Shown: in pieces, positions 4,334 through 52,420 of the stretch
Numbering within the stretch: the first letter of the stretch is position 1
How the letters are laid out: the number at the start of each line of letters is the position of its first letter
Assembly: GCA_002288455.1 (NCBI GenBank)
Contig: NEUS01000006.1
Span: 1 to 63,617, forward strand
From: Opitutia bacterium Tous-C1TDCM
GTDB taxonomy: Bacteria > Verrucomicrobiota > Verrucomicrobiia > Opitutales > Opitutaceae
Length of the DNA: 63,617 nucleotides
Direction: 5' to 3'
The notes under the pieces: model-generated
Seen by the model: only the letters and a program-made list of their open reading frames with translations
The model's database searches: none
What the model was told of the DNA's origin: nothing
Made by a program: the position numbers and the translations under genes

Positions 4334-4391
4334 GCGTGACCGCTACCGGTAGGAGGGCGGTGGCCGCGGCGCAAGGGGATCTCCGGCCGCC

Positions 4392-18385: not shown

Positions 18386-18389
18386 GGGT

Positions 18390-19436
18390 TCAGGCGCCGG
18401 CGGCCGCGTCGATCCGGGAGCGGTAGAGCGAGAGGTACTGTTCGGCGCAGCCCCGGGCCCCGTAGTGGGACTCGGCGCGGCGGCGGCACGCGGTGCGATC
18501 GAGATTCCCCAGCCCGGCGACGGCGGCCGCGCCCTCCGCCACCGTGGCGAAGAAGAGCCCGGTTTTTCCCGGTTCGACAATCTCCGGGGCCGCGCCCCGC
18601 GCGCAGGTCAGAATCGGCGTGCCGCAGGCCAGGGCCTCGGCAAAGACGATGCCGAACGGTTCGTCCCATTGGATCGGCAACAGCAACGCGGCCGCTTGCC
18701 CGAGGAGCGCATTTTTCTGCGCGTCGTTGACTTCGCCGATCCATTCGACCCCCGGCCGGCCGAGATGCGGGGCGACTTCGCGGTCGAAGTACGCCGCATC
18801 GGTCCCGCCGACGGGCCGGTTGCCCGCGAGGATCAGTTTCCGGCCGCTCGCGCGGGCGACCGCGATCGCGAGGTGCGGACCCTTGATCGCATCCAGACGG
18901 CTCAGGAAAACGAGCGGCGCATCCGGCGCGACCTGCGGGGCGAACGTGTAGACGCGGAGATCGACGAAGTTGGGAATGGCGGTCCATTCGCCGCCGGACT
19001 GCGCGCCCAGCGCGCGGATGAAATCGCTGCAACCGGTGAAGTGCAACGTGCCGGGCCGCGCGAGCCGCACGGCCCATCGGACGGTCGAAGGACCGACATG
19101 CCGCTGGTACGACATGATCTTGGGCCGCCCGCTGCGCTGGATCGCCGTCAGATAGGCGAGCCGGGCGAAACTGTGGACGACGTCGGGCCGGAACTGCGCG
19201 GTCGCGCGGCGCAGGGCGAAGGCGTTTCGCAGGGTGTCGAGCCGTCCGGCGACGTTGTCCCCGGGCCAGGGAAAAAACGCATCCACCGGGGCCGGGGATC
19301 CGCGTTTGCCGATCAGCCCGACGGTGTGTCCGCGGTCCCGGAATTCCGCGATCAAGGTCGCCACGATCCGCTCGATCCCGCCGTAGCCGGCGGGCGGGAC
19401 GGGCAGAATCGGATCGGCGGCGAGCAGAATGCGCAT
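18390..19436 (-). CDS. GT4 family glycosyltransferase
   Basis: A 348-residue GT-B enzyme. The start 'ILPVPPAGYGGIERIVATL' carries the GGIER acceptor loop typical of GT4. The donor side shows 'LVFLSRLDAIKGPHLAIAVA' and 'PIQWDEPFGIVFAEALACG' with the E-x7-E signature. The length is compact but complete. It follows the membrane protein at 19454 with a 17-bp gap. The role in the glycan is unknown beyond retaining transfer from a nucleotide sugar. Confidence 0.92.
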   Translation of the reverse strand: MRILLAADPILPVPPAGYGGIERIVATLIAEFRDRGHTVGLIGKRGSPAPVDAFFPWPGDNVAGRLDTLRNAFALRRATAQFRPDVVHSFARLAYLTAIQRSGRPKIMSYQRHVGPSTVRWAVRLARPGTLHFTGCSDFIRALGAQSGGEWTAIPNFVDLRVYTFAPQVAPDAPLVFLSRLDAIKGPHLAIAVARASGRKLILAGNRPVGGTDAAYFDREVAPHLGRPGVEWIGEVNDAQKNALLGQAAALLLPIQWDEPFGIVFAEALACGTPILTCARGAAPEIVEPGKTGLFFATVAEGAAAVAGLGNLDRTACRRRAESHYGARGCAEQYLSLYRSRIDAAAGA

Positions 19437-26363: not shown

Positions 26364-27379
26364 GCGCGAGCGGGCAGTTTCGCGAGGACTTGGCGCCAGC
26401 CGTAGCGCATCATCGTCAGCTGGGAGCGGTCGACGTAGTGGAGGGCCGTGTGCTCGGCGCGGCGGGCCTGTTCCGGCGTGGGATAAACGAGGTAGTCGGA
26501 GCCCAGGGCTTTGGCGCCGAAGCGGCCCATCAGCACGGCCATCAATGCCTGTTCGAGATAGTAGGAGAAACCGTGGCGGAAAAGCAGGACGCGGGCGCAG
26601 TGCTCGACGAAGTCCCAGTCGATGTCCGTGGACCGGACGTGGCAGAGGCCGACGTTGATCTGCGGATGCACCGGGGCGCCGGCGAGGGCGGCCAGGGTTT
26701 CCAGCGGGGCGCCGTAGGACTGCATGCAATCCTGCATGAAGCACCATTTCTCCGCGGCCATGAAGTCGAGCAATTGGGTTGGCGGCCGGAAAAAAAAGAC
26801 ATCCGAATCGAGCACCAGCCGCCAACCGGGGCCGGCGGTCTGGATATCGGTCAGCTTGCGCAGGTGGATGTAGCCGAGCCGGATTCGGCGGAGGAACGGG
26901 AAACGGCTTTCGGGAAGGTGGCGTTCCAGATTTGCCGCCACGGTTTCCTTGGCGATCACCTCGGCCCGCGGAAAAATCCGGTGCAGGGTCGCGAGGTCGT
27001 CCGCGGCAAGCGAGCCATCGTCGCAGAGCACGGGTTGCACGGGCCGGCCGGTCTGGTGCTGGAGGGAGAGTGCGGAAATCAGCGTCAGCGGCAGGTAGCG
27101 TTTGCCCGTGAGGTAGTGGACCGGCAGGACGGGGCCGGCCGGGACCGGCGGGGCGGCGAGGCCGGCGATGGCCGCCGCCATATCGTTGCGCCCGCGCCAC
27201 AGATGCCAGTGCCAGACCGCGCCGTCGCGCGCGACCTGCTGCGGGTAATGCCACAGCAGATACACGATGCGGCCGGGCGTGAGCGGCGGACGCCGGCGTT
27301 TCGGCGCCGGGATGCGGGCGGCCGCGACGGCGAGGTCGGCCGCGGAGAGGGGCAGGGGAAACGGTTCGGAAAGGCTCAC
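26360..27379 (-). CDS. Putative GT-A glycosyltransferase (GT8-like)
   Basis: A 339-residue soluble protein. 'LPVHYLTGKRYLPLTLISAL' and the clear metal site 'RLVLDSDVFFFRPP' (DSD, near residue 190) indicate a GT-A nucleotide-sugar transferase of the type that includes GT8. The following 'PQINVGLCHVRS' resembles the acceptor loop in such enzymes. The start is GTG at 27379, overlapping the upstream stop as GTGA. The first about 40 residues are not conserved-looking, so a shorter protein is possible. Confidence 0.65.
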   Translation of the reverse strand: MSLSEPFPLPLSAADLAVAAARIPAPKRRRPPLTPGRIVYLLWHYPQQVARDGAVWHWHLWRGRNDMAAAIAGLAAPPVPAGPVLPVHYLTGKRYLPLTLISALSLQHQTGRPVQPVLCDDGSLAADDLATLHRIFPRAEVIAKETVAANLERHLPESRFPFLRRIRLGYIHLRKLTDIQTAGPGWRLVLDSDVFFFRPPTQLLDFMAAEKWCFMQDCMQSYGAPLETLAALAGAPVHPQINVGLCHVRSTDIDWDFVEHCARVLLFRHGFSYYLEQALMAVLMGRFGAKALGSDYLVYPTPEQARRAEHTALHYVDRSQLTMMRYGWRQVLAKLPARA

Positions 27380-28176
27380 GGGGCGGGGACAGGGCGGCGC
27401 AGCGCGAGCAGGGCGTAGGGCAAGTCCGCGGCCGGCCGCAGCGTGCGGGCATCGTAGAAATCGAGACCGTGCCGGCGGAGAAATGCGGCGACTTCCGCGC
27501 CGTCGGCGGCGCCGTCGAGAAAGACCGCGCGGACTCTCCCCGCCGCGAACAGGCCGGCGGCGCCCTGCAGCACGGCGAGTTCCTGGCCTTCGACGTCGAT
27601 TTTCAAAACGAGGTTCCGGCCGACGAGGCCGACGGCGTCGAGGGGACGGCACCGGACCTTGAAGGTTTCGTCGAGTTGGTAGCGGGTCGCCAAATCGCGC
27701 CGGGTCGAGACGTGCGAGACGGCGCCGCGCGCAAACTCGAGTTCCGTCTCGCGGTCGCCGACCGCATGGGCGAAGAGCTCGACTTTGGTGCCGGCCAGCG
27801 TGACGGCGAGGCGGCGGGCCGTATCCGGATCGGCTTCGAAGGCGTAGAAGCGCAGGTCGGGATGGATGGCGGCGAAGCGATGGAGGATCTTGGAATAGAT
27901 GCCGACATTGGCGCCCACGTCGACGAAGGCGTCGGCCTCCGGCAACAGGCCGGCGATCGCGAGCAGCGCGGAGACCTCGTCGTTGAGAAACGAACTGCGG
28001 GCGATCATGCGCGAGGCGCGCAGGTAGCCGTGCTCGCGGATCGTGTTCACATGGACCGGAGTGTGGAGAAGCGAGACGTCGGTGTCGCGATCGCCCTCCA
28101 GCAAGCGGGTGAGCCAGCGGCGCACCCGCGGCTGCTTGAGCAGCAGGCGATCGACGAGCCAGCCGCGGAGACTCAT
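27376..28176 (-). CDS. FkbM-family SAM-dependent methyltransferase
   Basis: A 266-residue FkbM methyltransferase. 'FVDVGANVGIYSKILHRFAA' is the SAM-binding motif (near residue 92), 'FYAFEADPDTARRLAV' the acidic loop, and 'LVLKIDVEGQELAVLQGAAG' lies near 205. The N-terminal helical region 'TPVHVNTIREHGYL' is common in this family. Start is ATG at 28176, and 49 bp without a gene separate it from the GT2 gene upstream. Probable O-methylation of a surface glycan sugar. Confidence 0.92.
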   Translation of the reverse strand: MSLRGWLVDRLLLKQPRVRRWLTRLLEGDRDTDVSLLHTPVHVNTIREHGYLRASRMIARSSFLNDEVSALLAIAGLLPEADAFVDVGANVGIYSKILHRFAAIHPDLRFYAFEADPDTARRLAVTLAGTKVELFAHAVGDRETELEFARGAVSHVSTRRDLATRYQLDETFKVRCRPLDAVGLVGRNLVLKIDVEGQELAVLQGAAGLFAAGRVRAVFLDGAADGAEVAAFLRRHGLDFYDARTLRPAADLPYALLALRRPVPAP

Positions 28177-28225
28177 GCGGTGACGCGCGGCGGCGTCGGG
28201 ACGGGGGCGGAGGCGGAGCGGGGCA

Positions 28226-29236
28226 TCAGAGTTTGGCGACGAAGGCCGCGTAACCCGCGTCGTCGAAGGTGCGGCAGGAAGCGTAGGTGTGGCCGCGCCA
28301 ACGGCGGAGCAGACGGGCGGCATTCTCCGCCCCGACCAGCGCGACGAGGCGGACGAAATTGCGTTCGCCGAGCCGGGAGACCGGGCCCTTGGGCGCGCGG
28401 CGCCACAGGGCGAGGAGACGGGCGCCGAATTGCGGCGCGAAATCGCGCGGCAGTTTCCGCCAGCTCACAAAGGCGCATTCGCCGACGGCCGCGCGGACCG
28501 CGACGGTGGCGGGCGTGGCGGGGCAGGCGGCGAGGAAATCCTCCATCAGGCGCAACGAGGCGTAGCCGAGATTTTCCCAATGGCCGCTGTAGCGGCCCTC
28601 GTCGTGCAGGCCGATGGCGGTGAGCGGGGCGTGGACCTTGACCACGCGGGCCGGATGCAGGAGCAGATTGAAATAGATCCAGACATCGCCGACCGGATCG
28701 TACTCGCGGCGCAGCGGCACGAGCGGCGAGACGAGGTGCCGGAGCAGGTAGTCGCGGCGGTAGATCGGATTGTGGGGCGCGGGCTGGACGCGGAGGAAGA
28801 AGTCCACCGCGTTGGGTGCGGCGGCCATCGTGGCGCCGGGGGAAAACTCGGGTTCGCCCTCGGCGCCGAGGCGGTAACCGGCCATGTCCGAATAGGAAAT
28901 CTCGGCGCCGGCGGCGCGCATCGCGTCCGTCTGGCGGACGAGTTTGGCGGGATGGATGATGTCGTCGGAATCGAGAAACAGCACGTAGTCGCCGCGGGCT
29001 GCGAGCAGGCCCGTGTGGCGGGCGACCATGGAACCGGCGTTGGGCTGCCGCAGCCAAACGACGGGAAACGCGAGCTCGGATGCGAGCAGGTCGCGCAGCG
29101 GCGGCGAGGAGCCGTCGTCCACCACGATGATCTCGGCGGGCAGCGCGGCGGCGGCGCGCGCGGCGGTGCGGAGCGTCAGCCGGAGCGGGCCGATCCGGTT
29201 GAAGGCCGGGATGACAATGGAAACGAGCGGGGTCAT
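28226..29236 (-). CDS. GT2 family glycosyltransferase
   Basis: A 336-residue GT-A transferase. 'VSIVIPAFNRIGPLRLTLR', 'EIIVVDDGSSPPLRDLL' and 'YVLFLDSDDIIHPAK' give the nucleotide-binding and DxD metal motifs of GT2. The C-terminal part contains 'EYDPVGDVWIYFNLLLHP', a plausible acceptor region. It overlaps the neighbouring GT2 gene by 4 bp, and the two differ in sequence, consistent with consecutive sugar additions. Confidence 0.92.
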   Translation of the reverse strand: MTPLVSIVIPAFNRIGPLRLTLRTAARAAAALPAEIIVVDDGSSPPLRDLLASELAFPVVWLRQPNAGSMVARHTGLLAARGDYVLFLDSDDIIHPAKLVRQTDAMRAAGAEISYSDMAGYRLGAEGEPEFSPGATMAAAPNAVDFFLRVQPAPHNPIYRRDYLLRHLVSPLVPLRREYDPVGDVWIYFNLLLHPARVVKVHAPLTAIGLHDEGRYSGHWENLGYASLRLMEDFLAACPATPATVAVRAAVGECAFVSWRKLPRDFAPQFGARLLALWRRAPKGPVSRLGERNFVRLVALVGAENAARLLRRWRGHTYASCRTFDDAGYAAFVAKL

Positions 29237-30585: not shown

Positions 30586-31698
30586 TCAGGAAATGAGCCG
30601 ACGAAAGTCGTCCGGACGGTAGTGCTGTCCGGCATACGCGGCCGCCGCGCTGCCGAGTACGGACCAGTCGGCGCGCCGGGCCAAGGCCGCGCGCAGGGTG
30701 GCGACCAGCAACGGTACGGTCGGGGCCGGGACGAGGAAGCCGGTTTGGCCCGGTACGATCCAGTCCTCCGCGCCGCCGACACAGGTGGCGAGCACGGGCC
30801 GGCCGCAGAGCATGGCTTCGGGGATGGTCATCGGCACGCCGTCGTCGATCGCCGGGGAGCAGAGCAATTCATTTTGCGCCCAGATGTCGCGCAGGCCCGG
30901 CACGTAGCCCGCAAAGTCAACGCGGTCCGCGAGGCCGAGGTGGGCGACCGTTTCGCGGAGCGGGTTTTCGTACTCGCCTTGGCCGTGGATGCGGAGGGTC
31001 CAGGCTTCGGCGCGAAGCTCGGCGAGGGCGTGCAGCAGCAATTGGATGCCCTTGCCGAAATCGAGCCGCGAAACGGTGGCGAGGCGCGGGACGGCGGAGT
31101 GCGGCCACGGGGCGACATCCGTCGGTTGCCAGCGCAACGGGTTGTGCACGACGGCGGCGTTGGGCAAGGGCCGCAGCAAGTGCCGGCGCGTGACGTCGAG
31201 ATTGCGTTGCGACACGAAGCAGACGGCTTCGGCGGCGGCAAAAACCGCGCGCATGGCCGCGAGGTCGGCGGGGACGAGCCGGGGATGTTCGGCCTGCCAG
31301 TTGGCGATGATCCGGCAACGGGGCCGGCGCGCGGCGAGCCAGTCGCGCCAGCCGGGTTCGAGCACGAGATCGTAGGTGCCGCTGAAACTGAAAATCACGA
31401 GGTCCGGGGCGAAGGCATCGAGCGCGGTCAGGAGCGGATCGTGTTCGCCGGCCAGCCGGGAAAGTCTGCGGACCGCCCGGGCGGCTAGGCCGGTGGCGGG
31501 CACCGGCGGTTCGCGCAGTACGGTCTTGGCGCCGCGGGCGACGAGCGCGGCGATGCGGGGGTGCGCGGCGACCGTGGGAGAAACGGACAGCAGGAGCGTA
31601 TCGCCCCGGTCGGCGGCGGCTTCGGCCGCTTTGGTCCAGAGTGTATCCGCCCCGCCCCAGGGGAAAAGAAGGCCTGTCGAGATGAACGCGATTTTGAT
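30586..31698 (-). CDS. GT4 family glycosyltransferase with apparent ATC start codon
   Basis: A 370-residue GT-B enzyme if read from 31698. Codons there give I-KIAFISTGLLFPWGGADT, a perfect GT4 N-terminal strand and glycine loop, so the usual Met codon reads ATC. No in-frame ATG, GTG or TTG lies between it and GTG 31503, and that later start would delete the N-terminal domain's first 65 residues. The donor domain is intact: 'LATVSRLDFGKGIQLLLHAL' and 'SPAIDDGVPMTIPEAMLCGR' (E at the end of the GT4 motif). Spacing to the FkbM stop at 31712 is 13 bp. The gene either uses a rare non-AUG start or carries a start-codon mutation. Confidence 0.8.
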   Translation of the reverse strand: MKIAFISTGLLFPWGGADTLWTKAAEAAADRGDTLLLSVSPTVAAHPRIAALVARGAKTVLREPPVPATGLAARAVRRLSRLAGEHDPLLTALDAFAPDLVIFSFSGTYDLVLEPGWRDWLAARRPRCRIIANWQAEHPRLVPADLAAMRAVFAAAEAVCFVSQRNLDVTRRHLLRPLPNAAVVHNPLRWQPTDVAPWPHSAVPRLATVSRLDFGKGIQLLLHALAELRAEAWTLRIHGQGEYENPLRETVAHLGLADRVDFAGYVPGLRDIWAQNELLCSPAIDDGVPMTIPEAMLCGRPVLATCVGGAEDWIVPGQTGFLVPAPTVPLLVATLRAALARRADWSVLGSAAAAYAGQHYRPDDFRRLIS

Positions 31699-31711: not shown

Positions 31712-32452
31712 TCAGGTTGCGGCCGGGTCGGGGCGCCAAGCGGTGGTGTCGGGGCCTTCCGTGGCGATCTCGTAGCCGAGTCGGCGGAGTTCGCGGTGCA
31801 TCGCGGCCTGCTCGGATTCGGGGGCGCAGGCGTGTTCGAAATGAACCACCCGGGGCGAGAAGTCGCCGAGACCGGCGGAACGCAGCAGCGGTAGATCGAA
31901 TCCTTCGGTGTCGAGGACGAGGAGGTCGCAGCCGCCGGGGCCGAGCCTGAGCCGCACTTCGTCCCACGTCACCGTGGCGATTTGCCGGCTGGCGATCGCG
32001 GAATCCGGCAGGCCGAGTTCGCGGGCCGCGGCTTCCAAACGGCCGCGGTCGAGGCTGGCGAGGCCGTGGGTCCAATCCGGCAGTCCGGTGCAGTCGGCAA
32101 GGTGGTAGATCGCCCGCGTGCCTTGGGTCGCATCGAGGGCGGCCGGCAGCAAGGTCAGTCCGGGCTGGGCGCCGTAGCGGTTTTGCAGGGCGGCGAAGTA
32201 CGCGGGCATCGGCTCGAGCATCACGCCTTGCCAACCGTGCCGGGCGATGAATGCGGCGAGGGGGTCGTAGCGTTGGCCGTCGTTGGCGCCGATTTGGATG
32301 AAACGCAGGCCCTGCAAATCGGCGAAGCAACGGAGCAGAATGACGTCGAACATCGAGCGCGGCGGATGGTCGAGGTAGCGGGCGGCGATGTTTTCGGCCG
32401 CGACGGCGCGGATTCCGGTGCGGGCCAGCAGCTGTTTCGCCAGAGTCTTCAC
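31712..32452 (-). CDS. FkbM-family SAM-dependent methyltransferase
   Basis: A 246-residue FkbM-type protein. 'RFIQIGANDGQRYDPLAAFI' is SAM motif I, 'GVMLEPMPAYFAALQNRYG' the acidic loop, and 'LLVLDTEGFDLPLLRSA' replaces KIDVEG in the way typical of the IGANDG subgroup. Start is GTG at 32452, 6 bp after the fucosyltransferase stop. It probably methylates a sugar or a lipid-linked intermediate. It belongs to a distinct subfamily from the DVGAN-type FkbM genes in the cluster. Confidence 0.88.
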   Translation of the reverse strand: MKTLAKQLLARTGIRAVAAENIAARYLDHPPRSMFDVILLRCFADLQGLRFIQIGANDGQRYDPLAAFIARHGWQGVMLEPMPAYFAALQNRYGAQPGLTLLPAALDATQGTRAIYHLADCTGLPDWTHGLASLDRGRLEAAARELGLPDSAIASRQIATVTWDEVRLRLGPGGCDLLVLDTEGFDLPLLRSAGLGDFSPRVVHFEHACAPESEQAAMHRELRRLGYEIATEGPDTTAWRPDPAAT

Positions 32453-32458
32453 GTCGGC

Positions 32459-33385
32459 TCAGGAACGGAGGGCCGGCAGGCGCGTCCACCCGGCGGGAAC
32501 AAGGTCCCGGGAATCGTGCGGGCTGCGGGCGAACCAAGGGTCGGGGGCGAGGACGAGTTTGTCCGGCGAGGGATTCAGCCAGGCGGCCCACCAGGAGAAC
32601 GTGCTGTTCGCGATCGCGAGGTGATCGCAGAGCGACATGAAGCGGATCTTGTCGAAGGCATGCCAAGGCCGCACGCAGCGCACGAATTCGTGCGGGCCTT
32701 CGGGCCGGAATTCCTGCGCCACGGCCTCGATGTCGTCCGAGAAGATGTAGAGTTTGGCGGCCGGACTTTTCGCCCGCAGGGCGCGGACGGCCTGCGCATA
32801 GTAGTCGGGGCCGAGCACGCCGATCTCGGCGGCGAATCGGGGATTGCGGGTGTAGTCGCCGCGCCGGAAATGGACGGCGGCCGAAGGGCCGGAGCGGATG
32901 CGGGCCGCGACGGCCTCGACTTCGGGTTGCGGCGGGTAGCGGAAAGAGAAATGCAGCCGCAGCAGATCGGAAACGGGGGCGAAGAATTTTTCGGACTGGA
33001 ACATGCCGTCGAGGCAGGTGCCGTCGGGCTGGGCGAAAAATTCCGGGTAGAACGCGAAGGTCGGCGGCCGGTGGAAATTGGCGGCCGGGCCGTGCCGGCG
33101 GGCGTAGCGGTGGAACCGCAGGGCGCGCGCGACGGCGACGGACCAGCGTTCGGTCGTGGTGAGCGCGAGGCCGCGGGCGCGCGCGACCTCTTCCTCGTCG
33201 GCGAACTGCTCCGTGACGTTGAAGCAGGAGAGCGCGTAGCGGTTGTGCCCCTCGAAGTCGGCGTATTCGCGGAACCACGACACGTCCAGTTTGAGGACGG
33301 TGCGGCGGGCCTCGGCGAGCGCGAGGCCGGCCGCATACTGGAACATCTGGTTGCCGAGACCGCCGGTGAGCCGGGTGATGATCAT
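32459..33385 (-). CDS. GT11 alpha-1,2-fucosyltransferase
   Basis: A 308-residue GDP-fucose-dependent transferase of family GT11. The three family motifs are all present: 'LTGGLGNQMFQYAAG' at residues 6-20, 'AAVHFRRGDY' (the GDP-binding HxRRxD motif) in the centre and 'ANSTFSWWAAWLN' near residue 272. It would add L-fucose (or a similar 6-deoxysugar) in alpha-1,2 linkage to galactose-like residues. No GDP-fucose synthesis genes (gmd, fcl) lie in this window, so the donor must come from elsewhere. It overlaps the FkbM gene upstream by 4 bp. Confidence 0.93.
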   Translation of the reverse strand: MIITRLTGGLGNQMFQYAAGLALAEARRTVLKLDVSWFREYADFEGHNRYALSCFNVTEQFADEEEVARARGLALTTTERWSVAVARALRFHRYARRHGPAANFHRPPTFAFYPEFFAQPDGTCLDGMFQSEKFFAPVSDLLRLHFSFRYPPQPEVEAVAARIRSGPSAAVHFRRGDYTRNPRFAAEIGVLGPDYYAQAVRALRAKSPAAKLYIFSDDIEAVAQEFRPEGPHEFVRCVRPWHAFDKIRFMSLCDHLAIANSTFSWWAAWLNPSPDKLVLAPDPWFARSPHDSRDLVPAGWTRLPALRS

Positions 33386-34233
33386 GGGGCGGAGGGAGGA
33401 CGAGGGCCGAGGAGGCGGTGCTTCCAGCGGCCGGCGGCCATGCGGGCGCGGCGGGCGGCGGCGGCCCCGCGGCGCCGGGCGAGATAAAGCCAGGCCCGCG
33501 GGTGCCGGAGGTTGACGTAGAAGTGGTCGCCTTCGCCGGTGTCGCTGCCGAGGCTGACGGTGTGGCCGAGGGCGAAACCCTGCGCGCGCATGAAGCGGGT
33601 CAGATCGCGGTCGAGGGCTTGGCCGCGGTAGAGCTCGACGGCGGCGACTTCGAGCCAGACTCCGGCGGTGCGCGGCAACATGCGGGTCGCGCCGTTGAGC
33701 ACCAGTTGCTCGGCGCCCTGCACGTCGAGATGGATCAAGTCGATGCGGCCGATCCCGCGCCGGGCGCAGAACGCGTCGAGGGTATCGGTCGTCACGGCGA
33801 TCTCCTCCTTGAACTCGATCCAACCGTGCATCGGGCCGTTGCCGGCGGCGGGGAGCAGCGAACTGGATTTGTTGCCGTAGTTCCAGTTTTGCCCGGCGAA
33901 GAGTTCCGGGGGGCGGCCGGAGGAAACGTGAAACGTCGCGGTGCCGGCGCGATCGGAAAGGGCGAGCGGAACGAGCTCCGCGTTGGCGGCGGCGTAGCGG
34001 GAAAAATTGGCCCGCACGAGCGCTTGGTTCGACGGCAACGGTTCGAAAGCAAAGATCCGGGCGCGGGGGAAGCAGCGGGCGAAACGCACCGAATCCTCGC
34101 CCTCGCAGGCGCCGATATCGCAGACCGTGCGCACCGCGGCGGGGCGGAACAGGCACCGGAACTCGGTTTCCGCCGGGGTGGGGGCGGCGAGGTACGCGGT
34201 GATGTCGGCGGGACGGGACGGAGGCAGGGACAT
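33382..34233 (-). CDS. FkbM-family SAM-dependent methyltransferase, coupled to Wzt
   Basis: A 283-residue FkbM protein. 'TVCDIGACEGEDSVRFARCF' is SAM motif I, 'IFAFEPLPSNQALVRANFS' follows, and 'IDLIHLDVQGAEQLVLNGAT' is the LDVQGAE subgroup signature. Its ATG shares one base with the stop of the transporter ATPase (TGATG). In E. coli O8/O9 systems a methyl cap on the chain end is read by the Wzt C-terminal domain. The tight coupling here makes a capping role possible, but that is inference. Confidence 0.88.
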   Translation of the reverse strand: MSLPPSRPADITAYLAAPTPAETEFRCLFRPAAVRTVCDIGACEGEDSVRFARCFPRARIFAFEPLPSNQALVRANFSRYAAANAELVPLALSDRAGTATFHVSSGRPPELFAGQNWNYGNKSSSLLPAAGNGPMHGWIEFKEEIAVTTDTLDAFCARRGIGRIDLIHLDVQGAEQLVLNGATRMLPRTAGVWLEVAAVELYRGQALDRDLTRFMRAQGFALGHTVSLGSDTGEGDHFYVNLRHPRAWLYLARRRGAAAARRARMAAGRWKHRLLGPRPPSAP

Positions 34234-35468
34234 CAGAGGCGTTCGAGACTGCTCTGCATCGAGTTCAACACGATGCCGACACCGGAGGTGGCCGGGAACT
34301 GGTCGCCGGCGTTTTCGCCGGTGAGATCGAAACGGGCGGCCTCGAACTGCTGCAGGTGGCGGTCGTTTTCGGTCAGGCCGACGAGCAGGGAATAGGAACC
34401 GCCTTCCAGGTTCACGCGGTCCTGAGTGAACACGGCCTCGTAGTCGCCGGGCGCGAGATCCTGCGGCGGCAGCCACGAGGTTTGGACGGCGATGCCGTCG
34501 GCGGACTTGATGCCGACGGCGGCGACGAAGCGGCGCTGGGGTTGGCGGACGCGGATGGAAATACGGATTTTCCACGGTACGCCGACGGGGATGACGGCAG
34601 GTTGGCGGCCGTCGAGGGTTTCCAGTTTTACCGCGGTGACGTAGGCGCGTTCGGCGATTTCTGGTCCCGGTTTCGGCACCGTGACCGGGGCGCCGGCGGT
34701 GAGTCCGCGCTGGTATTGTTCAAGGACCGGACCGCAACCGCCGGCGGCCTCGAGGCGACCTGCCGAAAGGAGGAGGGCGGAGCGGCAGAGTTGGCGGATC
34801 GACGGCAGGTTGTGGCTGACGAAGAGCACGGTGCGGCCCTCGCTGCGCGCGACATCCTGCATCTTGCCCAGGCATTTTTTCTGGAAGGCGGCGTCGCCGA
34901 CGGCGAGGACCTCGTCGACGATCAGGATCTCGGGCTCGAGATGCGCGGCGACGGCGAAGGCGAGGCGCACGTACATGCCGCTCGAGTAGTGCTTCACCCG
35001 CATGTCGAGGAAGCGTTCCACTTCCGCGAAGGCGACGATCTCGTCGAACTTGCGGCGGATTTCCGCGCGGGACATGCCGAGAATGGCGCCGTTGAGGTAG
35101 ATGTTGTCGCGGCCGGTGAGCTCGGGGTGAAAGCCGGTGCCGACCTCGAGCAGACTGGCGACGCGGCCGCGGATCCGGATTTCGCCGGCGGTCGGTTCGG
35201 TGATGCGCGAAAGAATCTTGAGCAGGGTCGATTTGCCGGCGCCGTTGCGGCCGATGATGCCGACGACATCGCCGCGGGCGATTTCGAAGGACAGGTCGCG
35301 CAGGGCCCAGAATTCCTCCTCGGAGCCGTGGTTTTCGCGGCCGGCGAGACGGGCACCGAGCGCGCGCAACTTGGCGGTGAACGCATCGCGCAGGGTGTCG
35401 GCGCGGGTGCGCTGGCTGAGCCAGTAGCGTTTGCCGAGACCGGAGACGGAGATGGCGGCGGCACCCAT
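34233..35468 (-). CDS. Polysaccharide ABC transporter ATP-binding protein with C-terminal glycan-recognition domain (Wzt-like)
   Basis: A 411-residue ATPase. Walker A 'GRNGAGKS' is at 73-80, the signature 'HYSSGMYVRLAF' follows, and Walker B is 'ILIVDEVLAVGD'. The first 250 residues match the polysaccharide/teichoic acid exporter ATPases. The extra C-terminal beta-rich domain (about 265-411) corresponds to Wzt-C, which in E. coli O8/O9 binds the modified chain terminus before export. With the permease upstream it would move an undecaprenyl-linked glycan across the inner membrane. Confidence 0.93.
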   Translation of the reverse strand: MGAAAISVSGLGKRYWLSQRTRADTLRDAFTAKLRALGARLAGRENHGSEEEFWALRDLSFEIARGDVVGIIGRNGAGKSTLLKILSRITEPTAGEIRIRGRVASLLEVGTGFHPELTGRDNIYLNGAILGMSRAEIRRKFDEIVAFAEVERFLDMRVKHYSSGMYVRLAFAVAAHLEPEILIVDEVLAVGDAAFQKKCLGKMQDVARSEGRTVLFVSHNLPSIRQLCRSALLLSAGRLEAAGGCGPVLEQYQRGLTAGAPVTVPKPGPEIAERAYVTAVKLETLDGRQPAVIPVGVPWKIRISIRVRQPQRRFVAAVGIKSADGIAVQTSWLPPQDLAPGDYEAVFTQDRVNLEGGSYSLLVGLTENDRHLQQFEAARFDLTGENAGDQFPATSGVGIVLNSMQSSLERL

Positions 35469-35469
35469 G

Positions 35470-36321
35470 TCAGATGATGTCGGCGAACGAACGTTCGGTC
35501 CGGCGGAAGTACCAGATGCCGGTCGCGAGGAGCAGCAGGCTGACGACGATACCGTTGATCAGGCCCGGGACATGCACGGTGTGGGTGCCGCCGAGCAGGC
35601 ACCAACGGAAACCGTCGATCACGCCGACCATGGGATTGAGGGCGAAGATTTCGCGCCAGTTGGGCACGTTGCCGGTGCTGAAACCGACCGGGGTAAGGAA
35701 GAGGCCCACCTGCAGCAGAAAGGGCACGATGAATCGGAAATCCCGATACCGCACCGTCAACGCGGAGAGCCAGAGGCCGGCGCCGAAGGCGGCGAGGAGC
35801 GCGAGCAGCACGAACAAGGGCAGGAAAACAATTTCCGGTCCGGGGAGAACGCCGTACCAGGCAAACATCGCGGCGGTGAGCACCGCGACGATGCCAAAGT
35901 CGACGAGGGCGACGGCGACCGATGAGAGCGGCACGAGCAGGCGCGGAAAGTAGACCTTGGAGATAAGGTGGGTGTTGCTCACGAGACTGCTGCCGGTGCC
36001 CGAGAGGGTGTTGGCGAACAGTTGCCAGGGGAGCAGGCCGGCCATGACGAGCAGCGGATACGGCACGTCGCCGGACGGCATCTGCGCGAGTTTGCCGAAG
36101 ATGAAGGTGAACACCGCGAGCGTCACCGCCGGCTGGAAGATCGCCCACCCGGCGCCGAGCACGGATTGCTTGTAGCGCACGGCGACATCGCGCCACGCGA
36201 GAAACCCCATGAGCTCGCGGTAGCGCCAGATGTCGCGCCAGTAGTTCGATTCGCCCCGGCCGGCGGCGATCAGCATGATTCCCGGTTCGGCGGCGGGAAG
36301 GGAATCGGCAGCGGGTGGCAT
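35470..36321 (-). CDS. Polysaccharide ABC transporter permease (Wzm-like)
   Basis: A 283-residue ABC-2-type permease. A cytosolic N-terminal segment ('WRYRELMGFLAWRDVAVRYK') is the amphipathic gate region typical of Wzm/TagG. Six hydrophobic segments follow, with the loop 'YFPRLLVPLSSVAVALVDFG' and 'NPMVGVIDGFRW' near the last third. It pairs with the ATPase 1 bp downstream. The two form a one-step exporter for a fully assembled chain, in contrast to the Wzy-like polymerase later in the cluster. Confidence 0.93.
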   Translation of the reverse strand: MPPAADSLPAAEPGIMLIAAGRGESNYWRDIWRYRELMGFLAWRDVAVRYKQSVLGAGWAIFQPAVTLAVFTFIFGKLAQMPSGDVPYPLLVMAGLLPWQLFANTLSGTGSSLVSNTHLISKVYFPRLLVPLSSVAVALVDFGIVAVLTAAMFAWYGVLPGPEIVFLPLFVLLALLAAFGAGLWLSALTVRYRDFRFIVPFLLQVGLFLTPVGFSTGNVPNWREIFALNPMVGVIDGFRWCLLGGTHTVHVPGLINGIVVSLLLLATGIWYFRRTERSFADII

Positions 36322-36341
36322 GGTCGGAGGGAAAGCGGAAG

Positions 36342-39300
36342 TCAGACGGAGACGGGTGCGCGCGACAAGGCCTCCCCGAGGCGTTGCTGGAAACGGGTGA
36401 AAGAGAAATGCGCGGCGCGCGCGAGGATCGCGTCTTCGTCCCATGTCTGCCGCAGCGCCGAGACGGCGCCTGCGGCGATGGCGGCGAGGTCGCCGTACGG
36501 CACGAGGACACCGGAGGAGGCGTCGATCACTTCGGGGACTCCGCCGGCCTCCGCGCCGAGGCAAGGGCGGCTGCTGGCCATGGCTTCGAGGAACACGAGG
36601 CCGAAGCCTTCCTTCTTGCTCGGGAGGGCGAAGAGACGGCAGCGGCGGATTTCCTCGCGCAGCGTGTCGTCGTCGACGAAGCCGAGAAACGCCACCGCGT
36701 CGGCGCAGCCGGCGCCGGCCGCGACGGCGCGCAGACGCTCCACATCGTCGCCGCGGCCGACGATGCGCAGTTGGGCGCCGGGCATTTCGCGCCGGATCGC
36801 GGGCAGGGCGGCGATCAGGTCCTCGACGCCCTTGTAGCGGTCGGCAAAGGTCAGGCGCGTCACCGTCAAAATCACCGGCGCGCACTCCGCCAGCGGCACG
36901 CCGCGCGCGATCGGGAAACCGGCATCGAGGGCGTTGGGGAGCACGACGGCGCGGCCGGCCGGCAGCGGGCAGTGGCGCAGGAGCTCGCGGCGGGTGTAGT
37001 CGCTCACGCAGAAAATCCGTTCGGCCCCGCGCAGCGCGAGGCGTTCCGGGGCGGTGAACGGCCGCCAGACCTCGATGCCGTGGGCAACCAGATAGTAGCG
37101 CAGACGGGGGTTCAGCCGGCGGGCGAGCCAAGCCACGGGCAACTGGGCAACGTGGCCGCAGACGAGGTCGGGGCAGCCGCGGCTGAGGCGCAGGGCGGCG
37201 CGGATGAAATCCGATTTCCGCCGGTTGCAGCCGACGGCGAGCTTGGTGGCGGGGCTGCCGTGGAGGGCGAGATCGGCGGGGTTGATGGCCGGATCGTTGA
37301 GGGAAACGAGACGGACCTCCGCGGGCGTGGCGGCGAGGGCCCGGAGGTAGCTCTGCAGAATGCGCGGGATGCCGCCTTCGGACGAAAAAATCTCGGGCGC
37401 GAGCAGCAGGATTTTGCCCGCGGGAATCCGGGCGGGAGCGGAAGCAACCGAGACCGCCGGGGCGGAGCGGGCCAGAGCCGGGGGGGCGTGGCGGTTGGCG
37501 AATTGCACGAGCATCGCGATGCTCCAGACGCGGGACCACTTGCGGTTGTCGTCGCCGGCGACGAAGCCCTGCCAGAGCTGACCGACCGCGGCGCGTTGGA
37601 AGAGCCCGCTGCGGTCGACGCTGGCGGCCGCGAAGGTGTCCTCGAGGAAGGGCCGCAGTTCGCGTTTCATCCACACGGCGAGAGGCAAGGTGAACCCGCG
37701 TTTGCGGCGGTGCTCGAGGCTGGACGGGACGAGGTCGCGGACGGCGGCGTAGAGCGAGGCTTTGGGTTCGCCGCGGCCCGCTTTCCAGGCGGCGGGTTGC
37801 TGCCAGAGCCACTGCAGAAGCACGCGGTCGACGAAGGGCACGCGGAGCTCCAGGGAATGCCGCATGCTCATGACGTCGCTGTCGCGCAGCAGCACGTCGG
37901 TCATGTAGGTGCGGAGTTCCCAGGCGCTGGCGATTTCGAAAAGCCGGTCGCCCGGGACCTCGGCCGCGATTTCGGCGAGGGCGGGGTGGAACGTCCCGGA
38001 CGAAGCGGCGGCGGCTTCCGGCGCGAGGAGCGAGCGCGCGGCGGTGGAAGGAAACACGCGGCGCTGGAGCGCGCCGATCTCGTGGGCGTTGCGGGCCGAG
38101 CCGAGCAGGTCGGCGAGTTTGCGGCGGCGCGTATCGCCGCGCTCGAGCCAGCCGACGGCGCTGCGCCGGAGGCTTTCCGGCAGACTGCGCCAGACCGGCA
38201 AGAGGCGGGCGAGCCGCGGGATGTCACGGAAAGACGGATACCCGCCGAAGAGTTCGTCGCCGCCGAGGCCCGAGAGCGCCACGGTCACCCCGCCGGCGCG
38301 GGCGGCGGCGCTCGCGTACCAGGTGTTGAGGCCGTCGCCGGTCGGTTGGTCGAAGGCCGCGCAAATCTTGCCGAGGTCGCGGGCCACCCGGGCGCCGGTG
38401 AGTTCGAACTCCGTGTGCGCGGTGCCGAAATACCTGGCCGCCTCGGCGGCTTCGGGGGCCTCGGAGTAGCCGGCGTCGGGGAACGTGACGGCGAAGGTCC
38501 GCAATTGGTCCGCGCCCGTGTGGCGCATGAGGCCGACGACGCTCGCGGAATCGAGCCCGCCGGAGAGGAAGGCGCCGACGGGGACATCCGCCGCGCCGTG
38601 GGCACGGATTGTGTCCTCGAGTTTCTCCCGCAGCGCGGCGGTGAATTCGGTTGCGTCGCGGCAGACGGCCGCGGGATTCGCGGCCGGGAAACGCCAGGCG
38701 CGGCGCAGGGTCAGGCGGCCTTGGCGAAAGGTGGCGCATTCGCCGGGGCGCAGGCTGATCACGCCGCGGTAGATCGTGCGGGGGGCGGGCACCGCCAGCC
38801 AACCGAGGAAATCGGCGGCCGCACCGGGATCGATTTCCGCCGCGAAAGTGCCGCCGGCGACGAGGGCGTTGAGTTCCGAAGCGAAGACCAGGGCGCCATT
38901 GGCTTCGCGGCAGTACAGCGGTTTGATGCCGAACGGATCGCGGGCCAGAAACAGCGAATTTTCGCGCCGGTCCGAGATCGCGAAGGCGAACATGCCGCGG
39001 AAGCGGGCGAGGCAGGCTTCGCCCCAGTGCACGTAGGCGGCGAGCAGGACTTCGGTGTCGCACCGGGTGCGGAAACTCCAACCGGCGGCGGCCAACTCCC
39101 GCCGCAGGTCCGGGTGATTGTAGATCGCACCGTTGAAAACCAGGGTGTAGCGGCTGTCCGGGGAGCGCAGCGGTTGCTGGCCGTTTGCCGGATCGAAGAT
39201 CGCGAGCCGCCGCATGCCCAAGGCCATGCCTATGCCAAGGTCGATGCCGCCATCGTCGGGTCCGCGGTGGACCATCGCATCGCACATGCGTTGCACCCCC

Positions 39301-39356
39301 GCCCGGAGTACGTCCGGATGGACCTGTGGATCAATCCAACCGGCGATGCCGCACAT
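36342..39356 (-). CDS. Fusion protein: AsnB-type glutamine amidotransferase and GT4 glycosyltransferase
   Basis: A 1004-residue two-part protein and the first gene of the polysaccharide cluster. Residues 1-622 form an asparagine synthetase B-like enzyme. Cys2 is the glutaminase nucleophile ('MCGIAGW'), followed by 'FNGAIYNH' (75-81, with Ala77 where AsnB has Glu), Asp100, the ATP pyrophosphatase loop 'SGGLDSAS' (265-272) and 'GLGGDELFGGY' (363-373). After a Pro/Ala/Ser linker (about 623-646), residues 647-1004 form a complete GT4 transferase ('VTRLTFADRYKGVEDLIAAL', 'SKKEGFGLVFLEAM' with E-x7-E). In glycan loci AsnB-like enzymes are thought to amidate uronic acids. Here the amidation and transfer steps would be physically joined. 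No stop or frameshift separates the halves. Confidence 0.92.
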   Translation of the reverse strand: MCGIAGWIDPQVHPDVLRAGVQRMCDAMVHRGPDDGGIDLGIGMALGMRRLAIFDPANGQQPLRSPDSRYTLVFNGAIYNHPDLRRELAAAGWSFRTRCDTEVLLAAYVHWGEACLARFRGMFAFAISDRRENSLFLARDPFGIKPLYCREANGALVFASELNALVAGGTFAAEIDPGAAADFLGWLAVPAPRTIYRGVISLRPGECATFRQGRLTLRRAWRFPAANPAAVCRDATEFTAALREKLEDTIRAHGAADVPVGAFLSGGLDSASVVGLMRHTGADQLRTFAVTFPDAGYSEAPEAAEAARYFGTAHTEFELTGARVARDLGKICAAFDQPTGDGLNTWYASAAARAGGVTVALSGLGGDELFGGYPSFRDIPRLARLLPVWRSLPESLRRSAVGWLERGDTRRRKLADLLGSARNAHEIGALQRRVFPSTAARSLLAPEAAAASSGTFHPALAEIAAEVPGDRLFEIASAWELRTYMTDVLLRDSDVMSMRHSLELRVPFVDRVLLQWLWQQPAAWKAGRGEPKASLYAAVRDLVPSSLEHRRKRGFTLPLAVWMKRELRPFLEDTFAAASVDRSGLFQRAAVGQLWQGFVAGDDNRKWSRVWSIAMLVQFANRHAPPALARSAPAVSVASAPARIPAGKILLLAPEIFSSEGGIPRILQSYLRALAATPAEVRLVSLNDPAINPADLALHGSPATKLAVGCNRRKSDFIRAALRLSRGCPDLVCGHVAQLPVAWLARRLNPRLRYYLVAHGIEVWRPFTAPERLALRGAERIFCVSDYTRRELLRHCPLPAGRAVVLPNALDAGFPIARGVPLAECAPVILTVTRLTFADRYKGVEDLIAALPAIRREMPGAQLRIVGRGDDVERLRAVAAGAGCADAVAFLGFVDDDTLREEIRRCRLFALPSKKEGFGLVFLEAMASSRPCLGAEAGGVPEVIDASSGVLVPYGDLAAIAAGAVSALRQTWDEDAILARAAHFSFTRFQQRLGEALSRAPVSV

Positions 39357-39365
39357 GGAAATTTT

Positions 39366-39379
39366 CCCGGAAGTCCGGG
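39366..39379. promoter_or_regulatory. Short inverted repeat in the 5' leader of the polysaccharide cluster
   Basis: CCCGGA-AG-TCCGGG is a perfect 6-bp inverted repeat whose edge lies 10 bp upstream of the first ATG of the cluster (39356). In RNA it could only form with some opening of the tight centre. As DNA it could be a binding site. Its place across the ribosome-binding region suggests control of initiation, but that is inferred. Confidence 0.3.
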
Positions 39380-39457
39380 ACCTGACATGGCTTCGCCCCG
39401 TCGCTTCCGAAAATGCGACCGGGCCGTTGGCGATAAGGATACAAGCTGACCGAAAAA

Positions 39458-39529: not shown

Positions 39530-40069
39530 CTACCAACCGATGGAGTGGGCGATTTCGGCGGACTTTTCGGGGCCGAACAAGTGGGTCACCAGGGCCAGGC
39601 CGAATTCCAAGGCGGTGCCGGCGCCGCGGGACGTCACCAGGCGGCCATCGACGACCACGCGTTCGGTGCCGAGGCGCGCGGGCAATTCGGCGGCGACGCT
39701 GGCGTGGGCGGTGTAACGGCGGTTCGCGAGCAGGCCGGCGTCGAGGAGAACGGTGGGCGCGGCGCAGATGGCGGCGAGCCAGCGGCCGGCGGCGGCCTGG
39801 CGTTGCAGGGCGGTGCGCAGGCCGAGATCGGCACGGAGGTGTTTCACTCCGGGACCGCCGGGGAGGAGAATGCAGTCGAAGGCGTCGGCGAGACGGTCGG
39901 TCAGCAGAGCGTCGGCGACGAGGACGAGACCGTTGCGGCCGGTGACGGTGCGATCCGGACCGAGGGCGGCGACGACGACCTCGGCGCCGGCACGGCGGAG
40001 CACGTCGACGGGCGCGACGGTTTCCAGTTCTTCAAAGCCGGCGGGCAGGGGCACGAGCACGGAAGGCAT
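39530..40069 (-). CDS. DJ-1/PfpI family protein
   Basis: A 179-residue DJ-1 superfamily protein of the YajL/ThiJ branch, whose members are proposed chaperones or deglycases. The nucleophile-elbow Cys102 lies in 'AAICAAPTVLLDAG', and the partner Glu in 'PAGFEELE' near residue 13. 'LLPGGPGVKHLR' and 'VVVDGRLVTSRG' are family landmarks. It is divergent from the epimerase gene with 81 bp between the starts. It reads towards the polysaccharide cluster, but a 173-bp gap makes it a separate unit. The specific activity is unknown. Confidence 0.93.
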   Translation of the reverse strand: MPSVLVPLPAGFEELETVAPVDVLRRAGAEVVVAALGPDRTVTGRNGLVLVADALLTDRLADAFDCILLPGGPGVKHLRADLGLRTALQRQAAAGRWLAAICAAPTVLLDAGLLANRRYTAHASVAAELPARLGTERVVVDGRLVTSRGAGTALEFGLALVTHLFGPEKSAEIAHSIGW

Positions 40070-42209: not shown

Positions 42210-42284
42210 GCGGGCGTAGTATATCGGCTATTATGTGTGCTTCCCAAGCATGAGAGGAGGGTTCGACTCCCTCCGCCCGCACCA
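42210..42284 (+). tRNA. tRNA-Gly (anticodon CCC), CCA encoded
   Basis: A 75-nt cloverleaf. Acceptor GCGGGCG (42210-42216) pairs with CGCCCGC (42274-42280), followed by discriminator A and an encoded CCA. The anticodon loop TTCCCAA (42241-42247) places CCC at 42243-42245, reading GGG glycine codons, which suits this GC-rich genome. GTTCGACTC forms the T loop. It lies 75 bp after recR and 24 bp before the small Cys-rich protein. Confidence 0.95.
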
Positions 42285-52345: not shown

Positions 52346-52420
52346 GGCGCGGTAGCCAAGTGGTAAGGCCGAGGTCTGCAAAACCTCTATGCGCCGGTTC
52401 AATTCCGGCCCGCGCCTCCA
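52346..52420 (+). tRNA. tRNA-Cys (anticodon GCA), CCA encoded
   Basis: A 75-nt cloverleaf. Acceptor GGCGCGG (52346-52352) pairs with CCGCGCC (52410-52416), the discriminator is U as expected for tRNA-Cys, and CCA follows. The anticodon GCA occupies 52378-52380 in loop CTGCAAA. GGTTCAATTCC is the T arm. Transcribed towards the TonB receptor gene 194 bp downstream. Confidence 0.95.

Follow-up and report, generated by a model that had tools for sequence, protein, structure and literature searches.

Where AsnB-like genes occur in polysaccharide loci, asparagine synthase is a common annotation for them. PGN_1234 of P. gingivalis is an example of such an annotation, and the AsnB-like WbpS is described as required for the uronamide in this species (PMC7468200). 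In Helicobacter pullorum, a wbpS mutant was reported to make a truncated glycan, the second sugar of which is given as HexNAcAN in the results text and as HexNAcA in the discussion (PMC6025236). The uronamide linking sugar SAGA on the P. gingivalis O-polysaccharide is further described as the attachment point for type IX cargo (PMC13086638).

An AsnB-like amidotransferase joined to a GT4 glycosyltransferase was identified in the stretch of DNA analysed here (the window; 63,617 nucleotides from Opitutia bacterium Tous-C1TDCM). ORF analysis placed it in a single uninterrupted frame of 1004 codons, as the original prediction had claimed without naming a strand; the frame has an ATG start and lies on the minus strand, and Pfam domains of both enzymes were found on this frame; the Pfam search matched no family on the plus-strand frame across 36342-39356. 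It is the first gene of a glycan locus, at the head of which it had been predicted to lie, with Wzm, Wzt, glycosyltransferase and FkbM methyltransferase genes following downstream on the minus strand. The features are as follows:

36342-39356, minus strand: AsnB-like amidotransferase-GT4 fusion gene, 1004 amino acids (ORF, Pfam, relatives, dN/dS)
Residues 1-622 of the fusion protein, minus strand: AsnB-like amidotransferase half
38859-39212, minus strand: GATase_7 glutaminase core (residues 49-166; Pfam PF13537, E 8.5e-45)
37509-38633, minus strand: Asn_synthase (ATP-PPi) domain (residues 242-616; PF00733, E 2.4e-78)
37419-37490, minus strand: Pro/Ala/Ser linker (residues 623-646; low pLDDT, dN/dS, variability among fused relatives)
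36345-37418, minus strand: GT4 glycosyltransferase half (residues 647-1004; PF13439/PF13692, GT-B structural matches)
35470-36321, minus strand: Wzm-type ABC permease, the next gene (PF01061 on 35470-36255; start at 36321 predicted from the sequence)
34233-35468, minus strand: Wzt-type ATPase with Wzt_C glycan-binding domain (PF00005, PF14524)
33400-34242, minus strand: FkbM-type methyltransferase (PF05050, TIGR01444)
32459-33385, minus strand: GT11, fucosyltransferase-like (PF01531)
31712-32452, minus strand: second FkbM-type methyltransferase (PF05050)
30586-31503, minus strand: second GT4 (PF13692)
5865-7241, minus strand: initiating sugar-phosphate transferase, at the opposite end of the locus (PF02397)
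39530-40069, minus strand: DJ-1/PfpI gene, upstream and in the same direction (PF01965; start predicted from the ORF)

The tested catalytic motifs are intact in both domains. The Cys2 and PP-loop of the original prediction were both found and are conserved in relatives: the nucleophile Cys2, which sits N-terminal to the GATase_7 core, is present in 81/81 aligned rows together with Arg50, Asn75, Gly76 and Asp100, as expected of a class II glutamine amidotransferase, and the S, G, G, D and S of the PP-loop SGGxDS (SGGLDS at 265-270) are likewise present in all 81, as in the AsnB superfamily. In the GT half, Glyco_transf_4 was matched at 661-812 (E 6.8e-15) and Glyco_trans_1_4 at 827-968 (E 1.7e-30), E916 and E924 of the GT4 E-x7-E motif at 916-924 (within EGFGLVFLE) are present in 81/81 rows, and a GT-B fold is indicated by structural matches, 3OKA and 3MBO among them.

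The glutamate of asparagine synthetases was not found. The position of human ASNS Glu364 is Leu in 79 of the 81 rows, Val in one and Asp in one; in the human enzyme this residue is reported to contact beta-aspartyl-AMP, and E364A and E364Q to be inactive with aspartate (PMC6748925). Since Leu364 replaces a Glu required by human asparagine synthetase, the product of the AsnB half is probably not asparagine. Among the NCBIfam models, the cut-off of TIGR01536 (asparagine synthase) was passed (421.5 vs 267.1 bits), which is not decisive as the model is a general one, while TIGR03104 (N-acetylglutaminylglutamine amidotransferase) fell below its own (345.7 vs 570.1 bits). Ala77, in the motif NGAIYN (75-80), had prompted the suggestion that glutamine use may differ. 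Whether fused or split, 71/75 Opitutaceae-type proteins have Ala at residue 77, whereas the five Chitinophagaceae fusions examined have Glu; a fusion-specific change is ruled out by the same residue in fused and split proteins, and Ala77, judged by these alignments, is a trait of the subfamily that is independent of fusion and does not point to a fusion-linked change in glutamine use.

The nearest relative (L027; 82% identical, separate assembly) carries the same uninterrupted fused frame, and comparison with it gave dN/dS values of 0.18 for AsnB, 0.13 for the GT and 0.86 for the linker (just 22 aligned codons). Both domains are under purifying selection. Because the fused frame is shared and dN/dS is low in both domains, the frame is not a product of chance. 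The window derives from a MAG of 160 contigs, in which assembly or sequencing error could have welded two genes, a concern that the original prediction had itself raised; however, fused frames recur in many independent assemblies, the linker varies in-frame among relatives and purifying selection is seen on either side of the join, which together rule out an artefact in practice and leave it a negligible probability. The predicted Pro/Ala/Ser linker was confirmed, its residues 625-646 being modelled as disordered (AlphaFold, pLDDT <50). The pTM of the window-protein model was 0.62, a value that says nothing firm on domain arrangement, and the model obtained for a Chitinophagaceae fusion was of low quality (mean pLDDT 69.1, pTM 0.50, 10 sequences) and was left out of the conclusions.

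Relatives were classed as fused or split from stop-to-stop frames only, the open-frame length listed by the genome search being a poor guide to fusion (the AsnB of G175 is listed as both 1072 and 633, and L080 has a stop codon between the halves, though a length of 1011 is listed for both). A total of 106 loci carried both domains, and removal of 18 duplicates left 88. An arrangement as two separate genes, which in close relatives had been named as counting against the prediction, was found at 56/88 loci, while 32/88, the nearest relative included, are fused (48/106 before deduplication), so that this objection is half borne out; by group, fusions account for 26/81 Opitutaceae-type, 6/6 Chitinophagaceae and 0/1 other loci. 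A wider search of Chitinophagaceae (Bacteroidota) gave 9 fused and 11 split among 20 loci examined. The fused AsnB+GT4 architecture thus occurs in many related bacteria and in two phyla, whereas in other relatives two genes lie side by side. Fusion is not a requirement, given the number of split loci and the 4-nt overlap between the genes in 34/55 Opitutaceae-type split pairs, and appears to have arisen from a conserved gene pair and to be reversible in part. The suggested channelling between the domains found no support either, as the linker is variable in length (approximately 19-127 amino acids between matched domains in Opitutaceae-type fusions), nearly unconstrained over the 22 codons and modelled as disordered. 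The GT4 half alone was matched in two genomes (G003 and G020) at E 1e-60, and a GT4 of this kind may therefore occur without the AsnB. No paper title describing an AsnB-GT4 fusion was found in the open-access literature searched, a search of titles and abstract starts that does not prove that none exists.

Over 54 loci, pairwise distances gave values of 0.66, 0.69 and 0.77 for the thirds of AsnB against the GT, and of 0.03-0.09 for Wzm against AsnB or the GT. AsnB and GT4 thus appear to be largely co-inherited, with the Wzm behind them exchanged. Co-inheritance is not strict, because the AsnB and GT trees conflict over the fused group. A single clade for Opitutaceae-type fusions is accepted by the GT data (p-AU 0.86; constrained tree 27 log units above the free one), and a single origin for both halves is rejected by the AsnB data (p-AU 2.9e-05), in tests that used quick trees and a group named after the trees were seen, with the split loci L011 and L114 added according to the GT tree.

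An ABC-2 permease and a Wzt_C ATPase among GT genes mark this as a locus of the Wzm/Wzt ABC-exporter O-antigen type. Wzm lies behind the pair in 61/75 full-length Opitutaceae-type loci and in 4/6 fused Chitinophagaceae loci, the remaining two of which end at the pair; no Wzm match was found within 6.8-8 kb downstream in six loci (L026, L046, L053, L054, L077 and L085). DJ-1/PfpI is a frequent left neighbour of the AsnB-GT4 locus in relatives. The unit probably illustrates how a constant enzyme pair can persist at the edge of an O-antigen locus that is exchanged.

The explanation we favour, at somewhat better than even, is that the fusion is a uronic-acid-amidating AsnB-GT4 unit of Wzm/Wzt surface-polysaccharide synthesis, the GT4 of which transfers or extends that sugar in a constant part of the glycan. 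The AsnB-like domain would hydrolyse glutamine and, at the cost of ATP, convert a carboxylate to its amide, the C6 of a nucleotide- or lipid-linked uronic acid being the likeliest target; uronic acid amidation is the best guess for this half. The GT4 would then either transfer the amidated sugar or extend the glycan only after amidation of that sugar, the latter modelled on PglJ behind WbpS, as proposed for H. pullorum. Such a use of the amidated sugar as acceptor had not been spelled out in the original prediction. Because the unit persists while the Wzm behind it is exchanged, the amidated step would probably belong to the constant part of otherwise variable glycans (adaptor, linker or cap). 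Fusion would have made one protein of a translationally coupled gene pair, with the partners held at 1:1. A UDP-sugar dehydrogenase was not matched in the window, a single copy being found on another contig. This enzyme family is present in 40/40 genomes of a panel hand-picked within the bacterial family (28 with this AsnB, of which 25 also had a detected GT4 half, the exceptions being G001, G064 and G164, and 12 without a match at E 1e-60), so its presence, with or without the unit, is uninformative for the uronic-acid model.

Fusion may also be near-neutral, a stop and the frame having been lost between coupled genes whose enzymes work equally well apart, and we regard this as a serious possibility, if short of an even chance. 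Both fused and split loci are found in close relatives, even within the genus of the window (G122 and G182 fused; G139, G154 and G168 split), L011 and L114 are splits within the fused group of the GT tree, and the linker properties given above point the same way; fused forms in two phyla and several genera, however, suggest at least tolerance and perhaps benefit. A near-neutral fusion fits the same chemistry as the favoured explanation and denies only a gain from fusion. For the AsnB half, formation of another amide-type bond (hydroxamate, lactam, or amino acid/amine-sugar) in place of a simple uronamide seems unlikely: TsnB9 (7YLZ), a hydroxyamidotransferase, is the top PDB match by sequence and fold, lactam synthetases have the same fold and Leu364 implies an altered pocket for the carboxylate substrate, but 7YLZ retains Glu where Leu stands here. 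Moreover, since Cys2 and the tested glutaminase residues except Glu76 are retained, glutamine-derived ammonia is the likely nucleophile, which it is not known to be in beta-lactam synthetases.

That the AsnB half is a housekeeping asparagine synthetase, attached to a GT4 by accident, is a weakened reading, to which we give roughly a one-in-ten standing. Beyond the TIGR01536 score, it is the sole full-length Asn_synthase match in its own MAG (completeness 86%), which has AsnRS and no detected GatB, and is likewise the sole match in 7/10 other AsnB-bearing genomes searched (G004, G049, G071, G113, G015, G026 and G164). Apart from Leu364, the 14 genomes searched speak against it: GatB is present in 13/14, G004 and G026 (with the unit) and G164 (with at least the AsnB half) lack AsnRS over the cut-off, and G013 and G048 have AsnRS yet no Asn_synthase match. 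By analogy with SAGA, the unit could build an amidated linking or cap sugar that stays invariant on otherwise variable O-polysaccharides and anchors exosortase-sorted surface proteins; this we consider very unlikely. If true, it would account for the pairing of a constant unit with exchanged exporters and for the exosortases in 39/40 genomes, but these occur in 28/28 genomes with this AsnB and 11/12 without, a co-occurrence that is uninformative; G005, G013 and G048, without the unit, have exosortases and no full-length Asn_synthase match, and the reading is countered further because no exosortase was matched in the window.

A pair that two phyla retain, each with fused forms, would link amidation to a specific glycosyltransferase, and makes it possible to ask directly in vitro whether sugar transfer precedes or follows amidation.

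Compared with known systems, the window protein resembles asparagine synthetase B (1CT9) and human ASNS (6GQ3) in domain order, Cys2, PP-loop and fold, and differs from them in Leu364 for Glu, Ala77 for Glu76 and the C-terminal GT4. Unlike the window protein, TsnB9 retains the Glu and has no GT. TsnB9 acts in a different pathway. The XrtA/PEP-CTERM amidotransferase model TIGR03108, by name tied to a PEP-CTERM/exopolysaccharide system, gave a near-equal best score (420 bits), but the cut-off, 816.9 bits, lies far above this, and no exosortase was matched in the window. The modules named for the ABC-exporter-dependent O-antigens of Klebsiella O4 and O7 are GT, kinase and methyltransferase, with no AsnB-like module mentioned in the abstract; as here, catalytic modules are described there as spread variably over single and multimodule proteins (PMC11231755). 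WbpS-type proteins (P. gingivalis PGN_1234; H. pullorum and P. aeruginosa WbpS) are described as products of stand-alone genes, with no GT fusion mentioned in those descriptions. Compared by description, they and the window protein are AsnB-like members of a glycan pathway that are expected to amidate a sugar carboxylate with glutamine; for H. pullorum WbpS, further glycan extension is proposed to depend on this step.

An AsnB-like amidotransferase and a GT4 glycosyltransferase are fused in a gene which heads an O-antigen-type, ABC-exporter locus as its first gene, since it lies behind a codirectional DJ-1 gene and is followed, all on the minus strand, by Wzm, Wzt, then FkbM methyltransferases, GT11, and GT2 and GT4 enzymes. 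The same run continues with an acyltransferase and a Wzy_C/O-antigen-ligase-type protein, and at a much greater distance downstream it includes a PF02397 initiating transferase. The features identified were:

36342-39356, minus strand, single ORF of 1004 codons (ORF scan)
Residues 49-166 of its product, class II glutaminase domain (Pfam)
Residues 242-616, Asn_synthase domain (Pfam)
Residues 661-812 and 827-968, both halves of a GT4 glycosyltransferase (Pfam)
33400-34242, minus strand, FkbM-type methyltransferase
31712-32452, minus strand, FkbM-type methyltransferase
27376-28323, minus strand, FkbM-type methyltransferase
17594-18580, minus strand, FkbM-type methyltransferase (weak match, 26.1 bits against a cut-off of 22.7)
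42210-42284, plus strand, tRNA-Gly(ccc)
52346-52420, plus strand, tRNA-Cys(gca)

The presence of four such FkbM-type genes together suggests a methylated glycan. A 1044-codon open frame lies antisense to the entire fusion gene (36315-39449, plus strand); it probably just reflects high GC content, because the plus-strand reading of 36342-39356 gave no Pfam match. The host genome is a draft assembly (4.15 Mb, 160 contigs, estimated 86% complete); its nearest named records are MAGs of Opitutaceae and other Opitutae (Verrucomicrobiota). Elsewhere in this assembly an exosortase match, in an open frame listed at 1009 aa, was seen to adjoin a GT4-like match (G000:C107:17991-18749 and 18920-19267). 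The component enzymes and their genomic setting are of known kinds; among the papers listed by an open-access literature search, none had an AsnB-GT4 fusion as its subject.

Both domains were found at 106 loci (48 fused, 58 split), of which 18 were dropped as repeats of a contig from another collection. Of the remaining 88 loci 32 were fused (26 of 81 Opitutaceae-type and 6 of 6 Chitinophagaceae), while the sole Pseudomonadota-labelled locus (L080) was split. The nearest relative (L027, 82% identity) was among the fused loci, and the fusion, originally predicted from one uninterrupted frame, is therefore real. In comparison with L027, dN/dS was 0.18 over AsnB and 0.13 over GT; the linker gave 0.86, a value from 22 codons only. 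By the original prediction, close relatives with two separate genes would have counted against the fusion, and such relatives exist alongside fused ones: in the window's own genus the genes are adjacent but separate in G139, G154 and G168, and fused in G122 and G182 (loci L020 and L101 are one contig of G182).

Linkers varied greatly among fused relatives; in the Opitutaceae type they were Pro/Ala rich and separated the matched domains by approximately 19 to 127 residues. Among 55 Opitutaceae-type split pairs the GT start overlapped the AsnB stop by 4 nt in 34, a sign of translational coupling, and lay at most 40 nt away in 8 and farther in 13. Approximately 0.8 kb separated AsnB stop and GT4 start in two split relatives (L045, ~4064-4899; L062, ~9881-10748). 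At G045:C30:66841-70113 the open frames listed for the two halves were equally long (1119 aa), with a 267-nt gap between the halves, which may indicate a fusion joined by a long linker. In other Verrucomicrobiota (G272, G376, G424, G397, G252), AsnB-like matches whose open frames were listed at 1022-1464 aa are possibly further AsnB fusions; listed open-frame lengths misled in two cases (G175 and the genome of L080).

Quick trees were built for each half. For the 75 Opitutaceae-type rows, the GT half was compatible with a single 26-member clade (24 fused rows and the two split ones, L011 and L114; p-AU 0.86), a group picked after the trees were seen, and the tree held to this clade scored 27 log units above the free tree; the AsnB half rejected the same clade (p-AU 2.9e-05). 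A simple reading is that the GT lineage fused once and AsnB parts were later exchanged, so that co-inheritance of the halves would not be strict. Fission seems to occur too, because L011 (a TAG within a fused-type linker) and L114 (a stop, then a -4 GTG restart) fall among fused members in the GT tree. In Chitinophagaceae (Bacteroidota) 119 of the family's 244 genomes matched the fused query at E values up to 1e-70, in many cases via an AsnB-like protein alone; the best 20 loci comprised 9 fused and 11 split. Fused Chitinophagaceae proteins shared only ~30% identity with the window protein, making a separate fusion event likely.

Of 81 full-length loci, 65 had a Wzm match of at least 200 aa (among the 75 of Opitutaceae type, 61 did) and 58 had a DJ-1 match of at least 150 aa. 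Wzm usually lay a few hundred bases away (1-6 kb in L010, L012 and L019); none was found in the 6.8-8 kb downstream at L026, L046, L053, L054, L077 and L085. It came next in four of six fused Chitinophagaceae loci, the other two ending at the AsnB-GT4 pair. Pairwise distances were compared across the 54 loci that had every gene: those of the three AsnB thirds correlated with those of GT (0.66, 0.69, 0.77) and less with those of DJ-1 (0.47, 0.44, 0.42); GT against DJ-1 gave 0.32, and Wzm was uncorrelated with all three (0.03-0.09). Wzm identity to the window's in Opitutaceae-type fused loci was 38-42% (10 loci) or 60-72% (11 loci), with L027 outside both classes (93%). Judged by these correlations and Wzm classes, AsnB and GT4 largely travel together while the exporter permease behind them is exchanged, and we infer that the unit acts on a part of the glycans that stays constant while the rest varies. 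GT4 may also occur without this AsnB, because G003 and G020 matched only by the GT4 half (E 1e-60).

Cys2 (the nucleophile), Arg50, Asn75, Gly76, Asp100, the PP-loop residues and the GT4 E-x7-E glutamates were kept in all 81 rows. Residue 77 was Ala in 71 of 75 Opitutaceae-type rows (Ser in 1, Cys in 3) and Glu in the five Chitinophagaceae rows and L080. Ala77, originally taken as a hint at different glutamine use, is on this distribution a subfamily trait; it stands where human ASNS has Glu76, a glutamate which is not known from other class II amidotransferases. In human ASNS, Glu76 is one of six glutamine-recognition network residues, and Glu364 is required, E364A and E364Q being inactive with aspartate and ammonium (PMC6748925). 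The aligned position is Glu in E. coli AsnB, human ASNS and the hydroxyamidotransferase TsnB9, and Leu in 79 of 81 rows of the unit's AsnB; the product is therefore probably not asparagine.

This bears on whether the AsnB half is a housekeeping asparagine synthetase, for which 14 genomes were searched for Asn_synthase, AsnRS and GatB. The unit's AsnB was the sole full-length Asn_synthase match in eight (the window's own, G004, G049, G071, G113, G015, G026, G164), as expected of such a role, but G064, G175 and G040 had others; G013 and G048 had no match and G005 short ones only (the unit was represented in G164 and G064 by its AsnB half only). AsnRS was above cut-off in 10 of 14 (not in G004, G164, G026 or G005), and AsnB presence did not track it, which makes a housekeeping role less likely. 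GatB was above cut-off in 13 of 14 genomes but not detected in the window's own, perhaps through mere incompleteness.

An AlphaFold model of the fusion protein (mean pLDDT 83.6, pTM 0.62) best matched TsnB9 and AsnB in its N-terminal part and GT-B enzymes, e.g. PimB' and BshA, in its C-terminal part. The linker (625-646) was disordered, and residues 364-374, around the Leu364 loop, also had pLDDT below 50. The model showed no sign that the domains are held in a fixed arrangement or share a channel, and so lends nothing to the earlier idea that the amidated sugar is channelled to the attached transferase.

A uronic acid is the favoured candidate for the carboxylate that the AsnB half would amidate. 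A UDP-sugar dehydrogenase is encoded on another contig of the genome, so uronic acid supply is possible, yet all 40 family genomes examined carry one and its presence does not discriminate. In P. gingivalis, the uronamide of the linking sugar requires the AsnB-like WbpS (PGN_1234; PMC7468200). An H. pullorum wbpS mutant makes a truncated disaccharide, HexNAc-HexNAcA in the discussion and printed with HexNAcAN in the results text; its authors propose in the discussion that without amidation the sugar cannot be extended by the transferase PglJ (PMC6025236). Two candidate mechanisms follow by analogy: the window's enzyme would either amidate a donor sugar and then transfer it, or amidate an acceptor sugar and then extend it.
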